Below are positions 25,718 to 32,139 of a DNA stretch of 52,058 nucleotides, in pieces. Made by a program: the position numbers and the translations under genes. Numbering within the stretch: the stretch's first letter is position 1; the number at the start of each line of letters is the position of its first letter. This DNA is from Nitrospirales bacterium (GTDB lineage Bacteria > Nitrospirota > Nitrospiria > Nitrospirales > UBA8639). Where the stretch lies: contig JAJDBR010000244.1 of assembly GCA_029261275.1 (NCBI GenBank), forward strand, positions 1 through 52,058, read 5' to 3'. Below the pieces are notes generated by a model. The model did not search any database. It worked only from the letters and a program-made list of their open reading frames with translations, and was not told the origin of the DNA.

Positions 25718-27577
25718 TCATTTCACCAGTAGTTTCACTTTTTCAATGATGGCGCGCGCGCTAATACCATAACGATCGAGGAGTTGTGCAGGCTTGCCGC
25801 TATGGGCAATTTCTTGGATTCCCATTTTATGGAGGCATACCCCTTCGGTGGACAGGGCACTCAGAACTGCATCACCAAGGCCTCCGTGGAGATAATGATC
25901 CTCCACGGTTAAGACCAAATTGTTTGTGGCTTTCGCAGCTTGTTGGAGGGTATCGACATCAATGGGGGCAATGCTGTACAGATCAATGATGCGAACGGTA
26001 ACTCCCGATTTGTATAATTCATCATAGGCTTTCAGAGCTTCAAATAGAGTGACGCCAGCCGCCACAATCGTCAATTGGTCCTTCTCACTTTGGCGAAGGA
26101 CTTTGGATCCACCAATCGTGAAGGTCTCATTTTGGTCGTAGAGAATGGGAGTCTTTGGCCGTCCTGTCCGCATGTAGACCATGCCTGTATAGTTGGCCAT
26201 GGTTTCTACGAGCCGATAGGCACACATCCCATCTGAAGGATACAAGACCACCACGCCAGGCTGAGCGGCCATCATGGCTAAATCTTCCAGGCCCATTTGC
26301 GAGGGCCCGTCCTCCCCTATGCTGACGCCCACATGCGACCCCATGAGTTTGATATTTGATTGGCTGATCGCGGCCATGCGAATAAAATCGTACGCTCGTG
26401 TGAAAAAGGCGGCGAACGTCGCGGCAAACGGAATCTTCCCGCAGGCCGCAAGACCAGCAGCGGCCCCGATCATATTTTGTTCAGCAATGAAGTTCTCAAA
26501 GAATCGTTCAGGAAACCGCTTGCCAAATTTATCGGTATAGGTTGAATTTTTGACATCCGCATCTAGTCCCACCACCAACGAATTAACTTCTCCAAGTTCA
26601 GCTAGCGCCACACCAAATGCTTCCCGAGTCGCCACGGAATCTGTTGGCCCATAAGGTGGGGCTGGAAGGGATTTTCCTGAACTGTTCGCACGTTGCACCG
26701 GGGTTGGTGGGGCGATAGAGAGAGCAGGAGCTGGAGAAGACAGGGACTGGTTCAATAACGCAATGACTTCCTCGGCTTGTTCTGTGTTTAAAGGTTTTCC
26801 ATGCCAAGTCGGATGGTTTTCGGCAAAGGGAATTCCTTTGCCTTTAAAGGTTTTTGCTAGAATCATTGTTGGCTTCTGGGTCGTTTGACGGGCTTGAGCA
26901 AAGGCCTCAAGCAACTCCGCATGGTTATGGCCATCGACACAGATAGTATGCCAGCCAAAGCCTTCCCAACGGGCCTTGTAGGCTTCTATGTTATGTTCCA
27001 ACATGGTCGGGTCTGATTGTCCAAGTCGATTAATATCGATAATGGCGCACAGGTTGTCGAGTTGCGCTTGCCTAGCGACATCGGCCGCTTCCCAAACCGA
27101 GCCTTCTACCGATTCTCCATCGCCTAACACGACATAGGTTCGAGCCGATGTCTTATCCAAATATTTATTATTGAGCGCGATGCCGATGCCCACGGAAAGG
27201 CCTTGACCGAGCGAGCCAGTGGCCATATCCACGAATGAGAGGCGTGGCGTGGGATGTCCTTCGAGATCGGATTCTAATGTACGAAGTTCAAGTAATTCTT
27301 TAGGATTAAATAACCCGGCTTCAGCCCATGCGGCGTAGAGCAGCGGGGCAGCATGGCCTTTTGAAAGGACAAACCGATCATTGTCTGGGTTTCGAGGATT
27401 CTTTGGATCGTATCGCATCACGGAAAAGAAGAGAGTCGCGACGATATCGGCGGCCGAGCAACAACTGGTTGGGTGGCCATTTCCTGCTTGGGTCGTGGCC
27501 CGAATGCTATGAATGCGAAGTTGATCGGCCTTTTGACGAAGCTGTTCTGGTAATTGGGCAGCACCAATAGTGGTCAC
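25718..27577 (-). CDS. tkt: Transketolase, single-chain
   Basis: A thiamine-diphosphate enzyme moving two-carbon units between sugar phosphates in the pentose phosphate and Calvin-type pathways. The protein has 619 residues, near the animal/archaeal-type length and shorter than the roughly 660 of E. coli TktA. The N-terminal TPP domain shows QAGNGHPTSCCSAAD (about 30-44) and the metal-binding GDGESVEGSVWEAAD (near 152). A linker rich in Ala/Pro (about 278-305) separates it from the pyrimidine domain, FFENFIAEQNMIGAAAGLAA, with its catalytic Glu, and the C-terminal domain. The linker suggests fusion of the two subunits found separately in some bacteria. Downstream is the Crp/Fnr gene. Confidence 0.93.
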   Translation of the reverse strand: MTTIGAAQLPEQLRQKADQLRIHSIRATTQAGNGHPTSCCSAADIVATLFFSVMRYDPKNPRNPDNDRFVLSKGHAAPLLYAAWAEAGLFNPKELLELRTLESDLEGHPTPRLSFVDMATGSLGQGLSVGIGIALNNKYLDKTSARTYVVLGDGESVEGSVWEAADVARQAQLDNLCAIIDINRLGQSDPTMLEHNIEAYKARWEGFGWHTICVDGHNHAELLEAFAQARQTTQKPTMILAKTFKGKGIPFAENHPTWHGKPLNTEQAEEVIALLNQSLSSPAPALSIAPPTPVQRANSSGKSLPAPPYGPTDSVATREAFGVALAELGEVNSLVVGLDADVKNSTYTDKFGKRFPERFFENFIAEQNMIGAAAGLAACGKIPFAATFAAFFTRAYDFIRMAAISQSNIKLMGSHVGVSIGEDGPSQMGLEDLAMMAAQPGVVVLYPSDGMCAYRLVETMANYTGMVYMRTGRPKTPILYDQNETFTIGGSKVLRQSEKDQLTIVAAGVTLFEALKAYDELYKSGVTVRIIDLYSIAPIDVDTLQQAAKATNNLVLTVEDHYLHGGLGDAVLSALSTEGVCLHKMGIQEIAHSGKPAQLLDRYGISARAIIEKVKLLVK

Positions 27578-27744
27578 AAACGACTCCTTTTTTTCTGAGA
27601 TTTGGGATAGTAATTGAGGTTGAGTGAAAAGGTAACAGACCCCTCTACCCCAGTCAATTTGAAACAGAATTGTACAGTCTTTTAAATATCGATCTTTTAT
27701 TCAGCTTTGGTGTCACATAAATATTTGGTGTTGCTGGGGTTCGT

Positions 27745-27910
27745 CCCCGCGGAAGAGCTTTTTGCTTGGCGGGTCCCGAAGGGCGTAAGCTTTGTTCTGG
27801 AGGCCAAAGAACCCAAAACCATGTTGGCCGTGGTCTGGCCTTTCGGGTGCCCTGTACGGTTCGCCAACTTCGCCGGCGCGCAAACTCGCTAGGCTCAAAT
27901 AATGCGCACC
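27745..27910 (-). repeat. Dispersed structured repeat, copy A
   Basis: Oriented on the minus strand. It has the box TTTGAGCCTAGCGAGTTTGC (27881-27900), then about 70 bases later ATGGTTTTGGGTTCTTTGG leading into a hairpin with stem CTTTG/CAAAG (27790-27809). The order and spacing match copies B and C. Open frames here in several directions are by-products of high GC content. Confidence 0.7.
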
Positions 27911-28100
27911 TTTTCTCCGAGGTCGGCTGCACTGCTCGGTCATGCCACAAGGCCAGGGAATTCCAATCATGTTCTGTTTTATTGAGAAGAAACCCTGCAT
28001 CTCCGATCATTAATTACATAACCTACATAAAACTTTAATTCTTCACTTTATCCGACGCCTGCCGGCTGGACCCTGGGTCGAACGCTCGTAATGTCCAGCG

Positions 28101-28250
28101 GGCCTTGTTTGAGCGCAGCGAGTTGGTCCGCGGTCCAAAGGTTTGCGTCCGTCTCATTCGATATTGCCAGTCGGGGCGGCAATGGTTTTGCGCACTTTTG
28201 CTGAAACAAAAGTGGGTCGGACGCCGAGCCGAGACTCGGCATCACAGGAG
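28101..28250 (+). repeat. Dispersed structured repeat, copy B
   Basis: Oriented on the plus strand, divergent from copy A. The box CCTTGTTTGAGCGCAGCGAG starts at 28103 and continues TTGGTCCG. At 28183 comes ATGGTTTTGCG, followed by the hairpin CACTTTTG-CTGAAA-CAAAAGTG (28193-28214) and a second hairpin GCCGAG-CCGAGA-CTCGGC (28223-28240). An open frame passing through it (MFERSELVRG) probably is not a gene. Confidence 0.75.
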
Positions 28251-28561
28251 ACCGCTTGGGCACCCTTGGATAGTTAGTGAACAACTTAAAAATATGGTGA
28301 CGAGTCGCCACGCAGGATCGGGGCTGCACAAGTACTCACGAGAGGCAACCTTTGCGGGCGATGGATCTGCGTTGGCTCCGCTGGAAAGGAACCCGATCTG
28401 TCAGCGCGGCGACGCCTTCACGAGCATCCGCAAAGACTCGCAGAACGGAAAGATATTCCTGGGAAACCACACTAGTTGGCCCTATTTCCTTCCGCCAACC
28501 AGATATGCTTAGATCTTCATGAATTTTCTGTGATGGCACGAAGCAGTGGGACACGATTGCC
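28251..28561. other. Spacer between repeat copy B and the FHA-LCAT gene
   Basis: About 310 GC-rich bases. Frames are open on both strands (for example 28336-28587 minus), but none has a ribosome site or recognisable family. It should contain the promoter of the FHA-LCAT gene; no clear sigma-70 motif was found. Confidence 0.4.
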
Positions 28562-30325
28562 TTGATTAGCAAAAACATACTCGTCACTACACCGCAAAAT
28601 CACCACTACATTTATGAACTTGGCGCCGAACGTGTTTCGGTTGGCCGGGGTTCTGATTGTGCGATTGGCTTGAGCGCTGAAGAGGTATCCAGGCGGCATG
28701 CGGAGTTTGTAGTGTCCGAGCAGATGGTGACGATTCGAGATCTCGGCTCTACTAACGGTACGTTTTTGAATGACTCCCCCGTAACTGCTGAGCCGGTGGT
28801 GCTCACCACTGACGATAATGTTCGGGTTGGCACCTACAGCTTGCGTTTGATCGATGCAAGTGACTCGGCGCTGGAGGGCTTGGGTTGGTCTGCGGAGATC
28901 CCGTTGCCACAGGTGGAGGAAAATGCAGCGACTGTGATCCAAAAACTGGACACTATTGTTGCAGATCAGACCATGTTGTCTGGGGAATCCGGATCATCGC
29001 CAGTACTGCGAGTGATCGTGCACGAAAGTCGCAGTCGCATCACCGTGAGTGAAGATGATCAAGTCAGCAGTATGACCCTCGACAATCGCAACTATTCCGT
29101 TGGGCGAGGTGCAGACAATGATATTGCTCTGTCCGACCCGCGCGCCTCCCTAAAACACGCGCAATTGGCATGGCGCGACGGAAGCTTTGCGCTGGTTGAT
29201 TTGAGTTCCACCAATGGTTGTCGACTAAATGGTGTGGCGGTTGATCGGCCAGTCAGGCTGAGCACTGGTGACATTGTGCGGATTGGGCGTGCAGTGATCC
29301 GTTTCACTGCGGATCGTTTGCCGAAGGCTGGATCTGGACAAGTCAGACAGCCGGTTGTCGTGATTCCAGGTTTCGCTGGTTCCGAGCTGTGGATAGACGA
29401 GACCAAGTTGTGGCCGAACCTGCGCTGGCTGTTGAGGGCTTCGGAAAAAAGTCTGCTGCAGGACTGGACCCAACCACTCAGGGTGGGTCAAATCGTACGT
29501 GAGCCCGCGATGTTGCCTGGGCTTGCGCGAAGTGATTCTTTTGCCTGGGCGATCAAATACCTTACCGATGAATTAGGTTACCAACCCGGTGTTGATCTCA
29601 TGGAATTTCCCTATGATTGGCGTCAAGACAATCGCGCCAGTGCGCGGCAGTTGTTGTCGGCCATCGGAAACTGGCGCGCATCTCGAGAAAATTCCACTGA
29701 GAAGGTCACCGTCATCGCTCATTCCATGGGCGGGCTGGTAGCTCGGGCGATGTTGAACCATGCGGATGGGGCAGATGCTTGTGAACGCTGTATCTTTCTC
29801 GGCACCCCCCACCAGGGATCCGTGTCCGCGCTAACGGTAGTTCTTGGTGACGGAACGAGCTTACCACAACGATTGGCCAGTACTAGAGTTTCCAATGTTG
29901 CGCTGACGTTTGACTCATTTTACCAACTGCTACCCAGCTTCCCGGTAGCAACGTTCGAAGACGGCAACCCATTTTCGCCGCTTACTCATCCCGAGTGGCT
30001 CGAGCCGCAATTTCGTCCTGGTTTGGAGGCTGCTTTGCAATTTCAAGGCGAACTTTCCATGCACCCATCGGATATGAAAACCACCTGTATATTCGGCTAT
30101 GGGCAAAAAACCCTGGATAAAATTACGGTACGTTATGAGAAGGGCAAAATCATACTCAAGGATTCATTTTACGAAACGCACGGGGATGGCATTGTGACGG
30201 AACGCAGTGCGGTGCTAGGCAGTTCTGAAATACATCCGATTAACCAACAGCATGGCACACTTTTCTCTGACCCTGATGTACTACGACGAATTCGATATGA
30301 GCTGATGGAGCGCAAACGCGGCTAG
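28562..30325 (+). CDS. Protein with two FHA domains fused to an LCAT-like lipase/acyltransferase
   Basis: A 587-residue protein with an unusual architecture. FHA domain 1 (about 20-97) has GRGSDCAIGL, VSRRHAEF and DLGSTNGTFLN. FHA domain 2 (about 172-248) has GRGADNDIAL, ASLKHAQL and DLSSTNGCRLNG. These bind phosphothreonine peptides. From residue 264 follows an alpha/beta-hydrolase of the lecithin:cholesterol-acyltransferase/PGAP1-like type: VVVIPGFAGSELW (oxyanion region), nucleophile elbow AHSMGG (Ser388), GDGIVTERSA (Asp542) and QQHGTLFSDPDV (His564), a full triad. No signal peptide or membrane segment is seen, so it should be cytoplasmic. The start is a TTG at 28562; no ATG lies between the upstream stop (28520) and the first FHA domain. 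Base use looks GC-richer than its neighbours. A small FHA gene converges on it. Confidence 0.82.
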   Translation: MISKNILVTTPQNHHYIYELGAERVSVGRGSDCAIGLSAEEVSRRHAEFVVSEQMVTIRDLGSTNGTFLNDSPVTAEPVVLTTDDNVRVGTYSLRLIDASDSALEGLGWSAEIPLPQVEENAATVIQKLDTIVADQTMLSGESGSSPVLRVIVHESRSRITVSEDDQVSSMTLDNRNYSVGRGADNDIALSDPRASLKHAQLAWRDGSFALVDLSSTNGCRLNGVAVDRPVRLSTGDIVRIGRAVIRFTADRLPKAGSGQVRQPVVVIPGFAGSELWIDETKLWPNLRWLLRASEKSLLQDWTQPLRVGQIVREPAMLPGLARSDSFAWAIKYLTDELGYQPGVDLMEFPYDWRQDNRASARQLLSAIGNWRASRENSTEKVTVIAHSMGGLVARAMLNHADGADACERCIFLGTPHQGSVSALTVVLGDGTSLPQRLASTRVSNVALTFDSFYQLLPSFPVATFEDGNPFSPLTHPEWLEPQFRPGLEAALQFQGELSMHPSDMKTTCIFGYGQKTLDKITVRYEKGKIILKDSFYETHGDGIVTERSAVLGSSEIHPINQQHGTLFSDPDVLRRIRYELMERKRG

Positions 30326-30624
30326 GTTTGCTCGAATACGAACTCACAGCGCCCCAGCGAAATCCTATCGTGATGTGCCAACTTTGTTAATTCAACCAGC
30401 TCATTGTTAACGTAAACGCCAGTGCTGAAACCAAGGTCCTCAATCTGCCAAGCGCCATCTAAAAAAGGCAGTTTTGTATGCTGTTTTGACACATTCGTAT
30501 CGCTAATCACAACGTCGTTTTGTGGCAGGCGCCCAATTCGGTATTCAGCAGCCACCAGCGTTACGATGCGGTCTTGCCGAATTAGGAGGCAAATCTTTTG
30601 TTGACAGATCAACTCTCCCCCCAA
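30322..30624 (-). CDS. Small single FHA-domain protein
   Basis: A protein of about 100 residues that is nearly all FHA domain: YRIGRLPQNDVVI (Arg32), VSKQHTKL (Ser46, His49) and DLGFSTGVYVNN. The usual Asn of STNG is missing here (STG), so the phosphopeptide contact may be altered. Its stop overlaps the stop of the FHA-LCAT gene by 4 bases in a convergent arrangement. The first possible start in the family-like region is a TTG (30624); the frame stays open 29 more codons upstream to 30715 without ATG, GTG or a good ribosome site. The gene could use a rare start or be the trimmed remnant of a longer one. Confidence 0.6.
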   Translation of the reverse strand: MGGELICQQKICLLIRQDRIVTLVAAEYRIGRLPQNDVVISDTNVSKQHTKLPFLDGAWQIEDLGFSTGVYVNNELVELTKLAHHDRISLGRCEFVFEQT

Positions 30625-30780
30625 TTCCCCATCAATGATGGTATCGTTATTTTTCCGAGAACGGGAAATGCCAGGTAAATGTTTGTGATTGTCAGTGAAA
30701 ATGCGATCTGTTTATGAACCTGGTTTGATCAAGGAATTCCCAACAGTAGACCATCCATGGTTTTTTGAGATGGAATAGAA

Positions 30781-32139
30781 TTATTGGGTGAGTTGTGTCT
30801 TCGTAGGGATTTGATTCAGAATGGTTGAACGAACTTGATAGAGCCCTTTGTGCCCGGCCCCTCTCGCAAACACGAGCCCCTTTTCACGTTTGCCTAGCAC
30901 TAATTCCCCAGCCAATTTTCCCTGGCGATTTTTTCCACGGATGGTAGCGGTCGGTGAGTCTAATCCCGTTTGACTGGATGTGGTGGACCCCTCGGGATGT
31001 GCGATCTCGGTCGGGAGGTCAACTACGCGACTGACGAACAGGTTGATCACTTCTTGATTCAACATGGCATTGGGTGTGTTGTCTAGGACCCAGTCATCAT
31101 GTTGCTTGATGAGCACGTATGGTTCTTTTGGCGTGGTCACTTCCAACATCACCACATCGTTCATTTCCATGCCGAATAATCGTTTATCTTGAAAATAGAA
31201 GGCATCTCTAGTAATAGGCTTTAAGATGTTTGGAGAAATCTCATAGAGTGGACCTTTGCGGGAGGTGATGGCGTAGGCTTTTTCTGCATCTTGAAATTGA
31301 TACAGACTGACGTAATGAGTCCTGGGTCCTTCTAATAAGGTGATCCCGACATGAGTGCGATCTGGTTGGTTGAGAATTCGTTGTTTTTCTTCTTCGGCAT
31401 CCACGAACCCTGTGGCTTTGAGTCCGCTTAAATCCATCAACAGAGTTCCGACGATAATTTTATCGGCAGGGGCTTTCATGGGACTGGTGAACATCCAATT
31501 TGGGGAGAGACTATGGACTCCGGCGGCTCGTGCCATGACCATTGTCGAGTCGGCTTGCTGAATATGCACTTCTTGGACACGTTCGCGTTCAAAAAATAGC
31601 AGGTCTTTCAGTCGAAAATCTGGCAAGGTTTTTTGTGCAAAGGTCATCACATCCAGGGTCGTCAGGACAACGTGGTTATCTTCTTTTGTTTGGACATACA
31701 AGGAGGGGGCAAAGGGGCCGCGATCGCCCAGGGCGAGTTCTTGCGTGATGGTCGGCGTGGTGAGTGTCAGAGTGAGGTAGGGCGGCTGTAATCCATACTT
31801 CTCTAACGTGGTAGGTCCATCTTCAATCGTTCGTTTAATTTTTCCGATGGTGAGTGCGCGTAATATTCGTCGGACTTCTTGGTTGTCTGCGGGAAATCGC
31901 ATAGGTTTGGTGATGGTCCATCGAAATGATTGGTCACGCTCAAATTGTATCGTTTCGGTGTCGGTGGACCAGGTGATCGTGGTGATCTCTTGATAATCAA
32001 ACGGAAGGAGTTGTCGTTCCTGTGTCTCTTGTTTTGTTAATTGACGGGTTTGCGGAATATCGACAAACAGGATATAGCCTCCTAACCCGAGCACAAGGAG
32101 TGCTAACACGATGGTAATACGAACCGGATTGTTCAGCAT
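30781..32139 (-). CDS. DUF4340-domain protein of a Gld-like ABC system
   Basis: A 452-residue protein with an N-terminal membrane anchor (VRITIVLALLVLGLGGYILF, residues 6-25) and a large periplasmic part with repeated beta-rich units, for example ITTITWSTDTETIQFERD and LEKYGLQPPYLTLTL, typical of DUF4340. It is the last gene of a four-gene minus-strand operon with an ABC ATPase, permease and GldG-like protein; one base separates it from the GldG-like stop. In this arrangement the protein is thought to be an accessory of the exporter. The substrate is unknown. Confidence 0.82.
   Translation of the reverse strand: MLNNPVRITIVLALLVLGLGGYILFVDIPQTRQLTKQETQERQLLPFDYQEITTITWSTDTETIQFERDQSFRWTITKPMRFPADNQEVRRILRALTIGKIKRTIEDGPTTLEKYGLQPPYLTLTLTTPTITQELALGDRGPFAPSLYVQTKEDNHVVLTTLDVMTFAQKTLPDFRLKDLLFFERERVQEVHIQQADSTMVMARAAGVHSLSPNWMFTSPMKAPADKIIVGTLLMDLSGLKATGFVDAEEEKQRILNQPDRTHVGITLLEGPRTHYVSLYQFQDAEKAYAITSRKGPLYEISPNILKPITRDAFYFQDKRLFGMEMNDVVMLEVTTPKEPYVLIKQHDDWVLDNTPNAMLNQEVINLFVSRVVDLPTEIAHPEGSTTSSQTGLDSPTATIRGKNRQGKLAGELVLGKREKGLVFARGAGHKGLYQVRSTILNQIPTKTQLTQ

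Follow-up and report, generated by a model that had tools for sequence, protein, structure and literature searches.

The window analysed here, a 52,058-nucleotide stretch of DNA from a Nitrospirales bacterium, is contig C162 of a draft genome (3.81 Mb in 283 contigs, 90% complete). It carries a gene for a 587-residue protein in which two FHA domains precede an LCAT/PGAP1-like hydrolase, and a gene for a 100-residue protein with a single FHA domain (Table 1). This arrangement had been proposed in a first-pass annotation. The domains of the larger protein were confirmed by Pfam with scores above the cut-offs, and the ORF coordinates place the two genes head-on, with stops overlapping by 4 bp (30322-30325). 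Both open reading frames were called from TTG, and no upstream ATG, GTG or TTG is present in either open frame, so the N-termini of both proteins are uncertain. GC3 is equal in the two parts of the larger gene (0.538 in the FHA part and 0.540 in the hydrolase part). Its G+C content of 52.9% is above that of all other listed genes except a small ORF in the repeat region (28105-28512), and 30 of the 39 genes compared lie closer to the rest in codon use; both are weak hints of acquisition.

Table 1. Features of the FHA-LCAT locus, in window coordinates.
Feature	Position	Strand	Basis or remark
FHA-FHA-LCAT hydrolase gene, 587 aa	28562..30325	+	ORF call, Pfam
Single-FHA protein gene, 100 aa, convergent	30322..30624	-	ORF call, Pfam; F-S-T-G replaces S-T-N-G
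FHA domain 1, residues ~16-97	28607..28852	+	pThr-contact motif residues present
Linker, residues 98-168	28853..29065	+	T-[VIM]-[ILV] three times (T124, T131, T137), possible phospho-acceptors; post hoc motif
FHA domain 2, residues ~169-249	29066..29308	+	pThr-contact motif residues present
LCAT/LPLA2-type alpha/beta hydrolase, residues ~262-587	29345..30322	+	Pfam, alignment, model
Ser388	29723-29725	+	
Asp542	30185-30187	+	
His564	30251-30253	+	
Stretch from tkt to the DUF4340 gene	27665..30780		no match in five relatives with both genes adjacent (insertion or replacement)
Dispersed intergenic repeat block in the tkt-DUF4340 stretch	27802..28247		many more copies genome-wide

FHA domains occur in adaptors, transcription regulators, kinases and secretion systems. 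Pfam detected two of them in the 587-residue protein (PF00498, E 1.7e-38, 131.3 bits against a cut-off of 20.7) and one, also above the cut-off, in the small protein (57.9 bits). The residues G-R, S-x-x-H and S-T-N-G, which we take to be the phosphothreonine-contact motif of FHA domains, are found in both FHA1 (G28-R29, S43xxH46, S63-T-N-G) and FHA2 (G181-R182, S196xxH199, S216-T-N-G), and both domains of the larger protein may bind phosphothreonine. The small protein keeps G31-R32 and S46xxH49 and has F-S-T-G, not S-T-N-G, at positions 66-69. The two genes had been regarded as a pair; their head-on arrangement stands, but a partner role of the small protein is weakly placed. Given its opposite strand and altered motif, we rejected it as an obvious partner, and the one role we retain for it is possible competition for phosphothreonine. 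Among solved and curated proteins, the FHA domains of the query resemble those of regulators of the GarA/OdhI and FhaB type, with scores below the respective cut-offs (125 for FhaB, against 120.8 bits summed over two domains, and 200 for OdhI, against 81.5 bits). To our knowledge, these regulators contain no enzyme. TagH, of which this genome has one copy, also shares the FHA domain with the query. Identity with TagH was rejected: the query has no T6SS_FHA_C domain (up to E 1) and scores 89.9 bits against the TIGR03354 cut-off of 120.25.

The linker between FHA1 and FHA2 contains T124-V-I, T131-I-V and T137-M-L. When up to 60 residues after each of 18 distinct FHA domains were compared with 2000 shuffles, T-[VIM]-[ILVM] occurred 9 times versus 2.3 expected, a count matched by 1 of the 2000 shuffles for what is a post hoc motif: it was chosen after viewing the 587-residue protein and the FHA proteins of loci L166 and L167, and these supply 7 of the 9 occurrences. 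The independent occurrences come only from L007 and L008, which are similar to each other. Overall, the motif is present after 7 of the 18 domains and absent after 11. This pattern suggests that phospho-acceptor sites may lie near some FHA domains.

The hydrolase half matched both LCAT (PF02450, 49.4 bits, E 5.4e-13, cut-off 21) and PGAP1 (38.7 bits, cut-off 24.3). Its catalytic triad, read earlier as complete, was borne out by a 46-row alignment (A3, for which 45 of the 47 filter-passing relatives were used, L087 and L106 being left out). Ser388 and Asp542 are conserved in all 46 rows and His564 in 38, the eight exceptions being six gaps, one E and one K. An AlphaFold2 model, built with an alignment of 45 relatives, predicted an alpha/beta hydrolase fold, as the earlier reading would have it. 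In the hydrolase, ten-residue blocks had pLDDT values mostly of 85-98, with weaker stretches at 311-330 (69-71), 431-440 (53) and 581-587 (68); nearly all blocks of the FHA part were below 56, because the alignment was without FHA rows. Foldseek placed lysosomal phospholipase A2 and LCAT in the twelve leading rows (E from 5.2e-15 to 2.0e-11; the top four had E 5.2e-15 to 2.8e-14 and target TM of 0.62-0.65), followed by ordinary lipases. Tle4 was absent from the first 50 rows. A PDB profile search with A3 gave Tle4 (4r1d) at 1.7e-24, Group XV PLA2 at 1.1e-23 and LCAT at 1.2e-17. Together, the profile and Foldseek results narrow the original description, a lipase or acyltransferase, to the LPLA2/LCAT fold, and on the basis of fold and motif the enzyme is most likely a phospholipase or transacylase. 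Group XV (lysosomal) PLA2 and LCAT share with the query the alpha/beta hydrolase fold, the Ser-Asp-His order and the motifs HSMG, GDGTV and H. They differ in that they are not known to have FHA domains and are lysosomal or secreted. The largest 19-residue hydropathy of the 587-residue protein is 1.24, and it has no TM-like stretch.

We searched for other proteins of the FHA-FHA-LCAT order and found none in the genomes and loci covered. The genome searches concerned one phylum and used overlapping sets (40 relatives, 295 and 395 genomes of the phylum, and 235 of the order, own genome counted), in which the best few candidates per genome (3 in the set of 395, 4 in that of 295 and 5 in that of 235) were scored, with the E limit set to 1e-12 or 1e-15. 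No other genome among the 394 of the phylum and 234 of the order (overlapping sets) had FHA and hydrolase in one match. At E <=1e-12, matches in other genomes covered either the hydrolase alone (30-38% identity) or, in two genomes (G442 and G434), the FHA part alone (28-29% identity). The tandem-FHA proteins of these two genomes align with the query over FHA1 to FHA2; by Pfam, they consist of FHA-type domains only (three in G442 and two in G434) and contain no hydrolase. As a separate observation, the three-FHA protein of G442 (L166:3486-5566) adjoins a 127-residue single-FHA protein; by reading, the FHA protein of one of the two genomes adjoins a single-FHA gene and that of the other a gene resembling a TPR-kinase.

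Other phyla were covered through GTDB, IMG/VR, plasmid and phage searches. No other fusion was found in the 80 GTDB loci covered, out of at least 117 relatives. These 80 loci are all included in the 100 loci with a lipase match, in which FHA was detected in 3 of 100 open frames, all three being, like a truncated fourth frame (L019), copies of this gene; lipase ORFs of 1033-1052 residues from G199, G233, G337 and G380 were left out of this domain reading. With the 587-residue query, phage records yielded a 45-residue FHA match alone (2 records), and plasmid records yielded 44 matches, none of which covered 80% of the query. The FHA half matched 5 plasmid records, one of them, a Brasilonema ABC transporter gene, with 85% coverage. 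For the small FHA protein there were 21 matching plasmid records, all below 60% identity. Six LCAT-type loci were found in IMG/VR with no FHA frame in any of them, and the FHA half had no match there. Phage or plasmid cargo was rejected, there being no full-length match in either collection, and so was a widespread system, as no second fusion was found in the searched genomes. Besides, no FHA-lipase fusion appeared as a topic in the titles and abstract starts of the open-access PMC papers covered, which agrees with the earlier statement that no described system of this architecture was known. FHA-FHA-LCAT combines known parts in a new way and was seen in a single genome; because no second genome with the fusion was found, there is no conservation argument for the combination.

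The neighbours of the pair were assigned by Pfam to transketolase, a Crp-type regulator, multicopper oxidase, DUF4340, ABC transporter parts and OmpA. We compared 13 stretches around the DUF4340 gene, taken from genomes of the same genus, none of which had a match to the 587-residue protein or the small FHA protein (E 1e-8). The tkt gene adjoins the DUF4340 gene in 5 of the 13, at a spacing of about 450-540 bp in four (G007, G009, G015 and G008) and of 1.4 kb in G014. In the other eight tkt is not beside the DUF4340 gene: four (G018, G016, G013 and G003) have other genes in its position with a dsbA gene next, and in four (G006, G005, G010 and G001) the stretch ends or carries other genes at this position. 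The neighbourhood itself is therefore variable. In G007, similarity past tkt is limited to the first 87 bp (27578-27664), and the remainder of its tkt-DUF4340 gap had no significant match in the window, so the segment beyond, up to the DUF4340 gene, is an insertion or replacement; the pair thus sits in a non-conserved stretch flanked by core genes. In G014 the corresponding gap (L041:5518-6181) is occupied by a FitA-like antitoxin together with a PIN protein; the present genome has FHA-LCAT there, so the slot takes different cargo.

Positions 27578-28600 had 48 matches in their own genome, counting the self-match, and two parts of the repeat block account for most. The 47 further matches indicate that the upstream sequence comes from this genome. 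Part of the block is also present in the relative G006 (L038). No RNA family reached the gathering score in 27000-31500, and a short GC-rich word, taken as a guess at the repeats, gave no signal in the window (10 matches versus 11.1 expected).

Kinase, phosphatase and secretion partners had been expected elsewhere. Pfam found none of these genes among the eight neighbours on either side, and all three types are present on other contigs, none of them linked to the FHA-LCAT locus. Two Ser/Thr kinases exceed the Pfam cut-off, one of 623 residues on C51 and one of 1873 residues on C251, the latter also with AAA, GAF and sigma-54 parts. A single PP2C phosphatase is encoded on C85. Contig C255 (L064, L058) carries T6SS genes, namely Hcp, VipA, VipB, TagF, DotU, TssK (VasE) and TagH. 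Genome-wide there are four FHA domains, three at this locus and one in the TagH protein. Two more LCAT-type matches were detected, a strong one on C146 (51.1 bits) and one barely above the cut-off on C157 (22 bits).

Some relatives of the hydrolase are associated with CHAT proteases. A CHAT domain was found in 21 of the 100 loci with a hydrolase relative, corresponding to 20 of 93 distinct genes (16 of the 75 GTDB loci within these 93), and in 12 cases it is fused in the same frame. No CHAT was found by our model in the other 79 loci; 21 is a low count, because the model missed a TPR-CHAT protein in L053 (G317), which Pfam detects immediately before the lipase gene. In some relatives, then, the hydrolase module appears to be under other control parts. 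For example, in the LCAT-CHAT protein of L056 (DUF7379-LCAT-CHAT-TPR-S), the same hydrolase family lies within a larger protein, with CHAT and TPR-S where the query has FHA. Alpha/beta hydrolases are reported to adjoin, and to pair with, caspase-type proteins in conflict systems (PMC7159879), and FHA is reported among the rarer effector-linked domains (PMC7159879, PMC8195603). These comparisons lend some support to the idea that the hydrolase would be a controlled effector and FHA its unusual control part here. Several arrangements were also noted. L053:4589-11430 has the LCAT gene after TPR-CHAT, with ThiF and JAB-type genes following, and reads like a ubiquitin-like conflict operon; G353 (L161:6446-9833) has a three-gene run of CHAT, an unknown 328-residue protein and an LCAT hydrolase. 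The L056 protein (L056:4427-10009) has 1861 residues, and lipase-match frames of 1853-1871 residues were observed in eight same-genus genomes (40 searched).

The explanation we favour, at about an even chance, is an intracellular phospholipase or acyltransferase of the LPLA2/LCAT fold that is directed by its FHA domains and switched by a kinase. The enzyme would be cytoplasmic, with its two N-terminal FHA domains reading threonine phosphorylation. These may dock it on a phosphorylated membrane partner, such as a kinase or a T6SS component; alternatively, they may bind phosphothreonines in their own linker, so that the active site is held or released. Phosphorylation by one of the two Ser/Thr kinases and reversal by the PP2C phosphatase could then time the attack on membrane lipids. 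The analysis shows the domains, the conserved triad, a predicted hydrolase fold, the lack of a TM-like stretch and the presence of kinases and a phosphatase in the genome; we infer that the substrate is a lipid and the enzyme cytoplasmic, as well as its binding to phosphothreonine, the kinase switch and the target. Against this explanation stand the lack of an operon partner and of a second genome with the fusion, and also the low-confidence model of the FHA half, the post hoc choice of the linker motif, the 79 loci with no CHAT by our model and the altered motif of the small FHA protein. A bolder version, which we consider improbable, is a kinase-triggered membrane lipase: with its tandem FHA domains it would recognise a phosphorylated partner, or phosphorylated T124, T131 or T137 in its own linker, and this would activate or place a phospholipase that attacks the cell's own membrane or that of a neighbour, as a phospho-gated counterpart of the CHAT-linked lipases. 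If true, an FHA-gated membrane lipase would tie Ser/Thr kinases directly to bacterial membrane chemistry, and a phospho-reading control part would be added to a hydrolase family sometimes tied to CHAT proteases.

Two other readings also treat the protein as an effector. It could serve death or defence, with a phosphorylation signal freeing a lipase to damage the membrane of its own cell. The CHAT proteases fused to or beside some relatives, the conflict systems mentioned above and the toxin-antitoxin pair in the G014 gap fit this possibility; however, CHAT, STAND or another sensor is absent among the neighbours scanned, neither protein matched a PADLOC 2.0.0 family (0 families up to E 0.01), whereby a known anti-phage system was rejected, and a second copy of the system was not found. 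We regard this reading as unlikely. Very unlikely, in our judgement, is a Tle4-like effector or other T6SS-associated lipase, in which FHA would dock to phosphorylated T6SS apparatus and the hydrolase would be injected or act there. It draws on the best PDB profile match, Tle4/TplE, and on the T6SS genes and TagH of this genome. According to PMC5611513, 4R1D is the Tle4-Tli4 complex. PMC10482370 reports that phosphorylated TssL is bound by FHA proteins in some T6SSs. As general background, Nitrospira marina is reported to have its T6SS proteins in greater abundance at low oxygen (PMC8115632). Against the T6SS reading, no VgrG (PF05954) was found in the whole draft genome (90% complete), the T6SS genes are on a different contig, and Pfam assigns the eight neighbours on either side to housekeeping-type or transport functions. 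The convergent gene encodes an FHA protein that does not look like an immunity protein, and alignment with Tle4 requires long insertions that are missing from the profile of this hydrolase family. Membership among Tle4 effectors was set aside on one feature, no VgrG gene being among the eight neighbours.

An ordinary lipid-turnover lipase with FHA as an anchor only, or a chance fusion without regulatory meaning, is quite unlikely in our view. In its favour, the combination is seen in one genome only and is missing at this position in the relatives compared; but both the FHA contact residues and the triad are intact in the 587-residue protein, and both parts therefore look kept by selection. 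That an FHA gene and a lipase gene were artificially fused in assembly, as a draft of 283 contigs and the lack of a second genome might suggest, is hardly credible: the join is in frame at a domain boundary, and GC3 is the same on both sides. The earlier concern that two separate genes were joined here by an assembly error was addressed through the relatives of the hydrolase half, of which the best-scoring in the phylum are only 36-38% identical (G229, G023), so no known gene pair explains the fusion as an assembly join. In addition, the upstream repeats recur in the genome, and the flanking gene order matches that of same-genus genomes.
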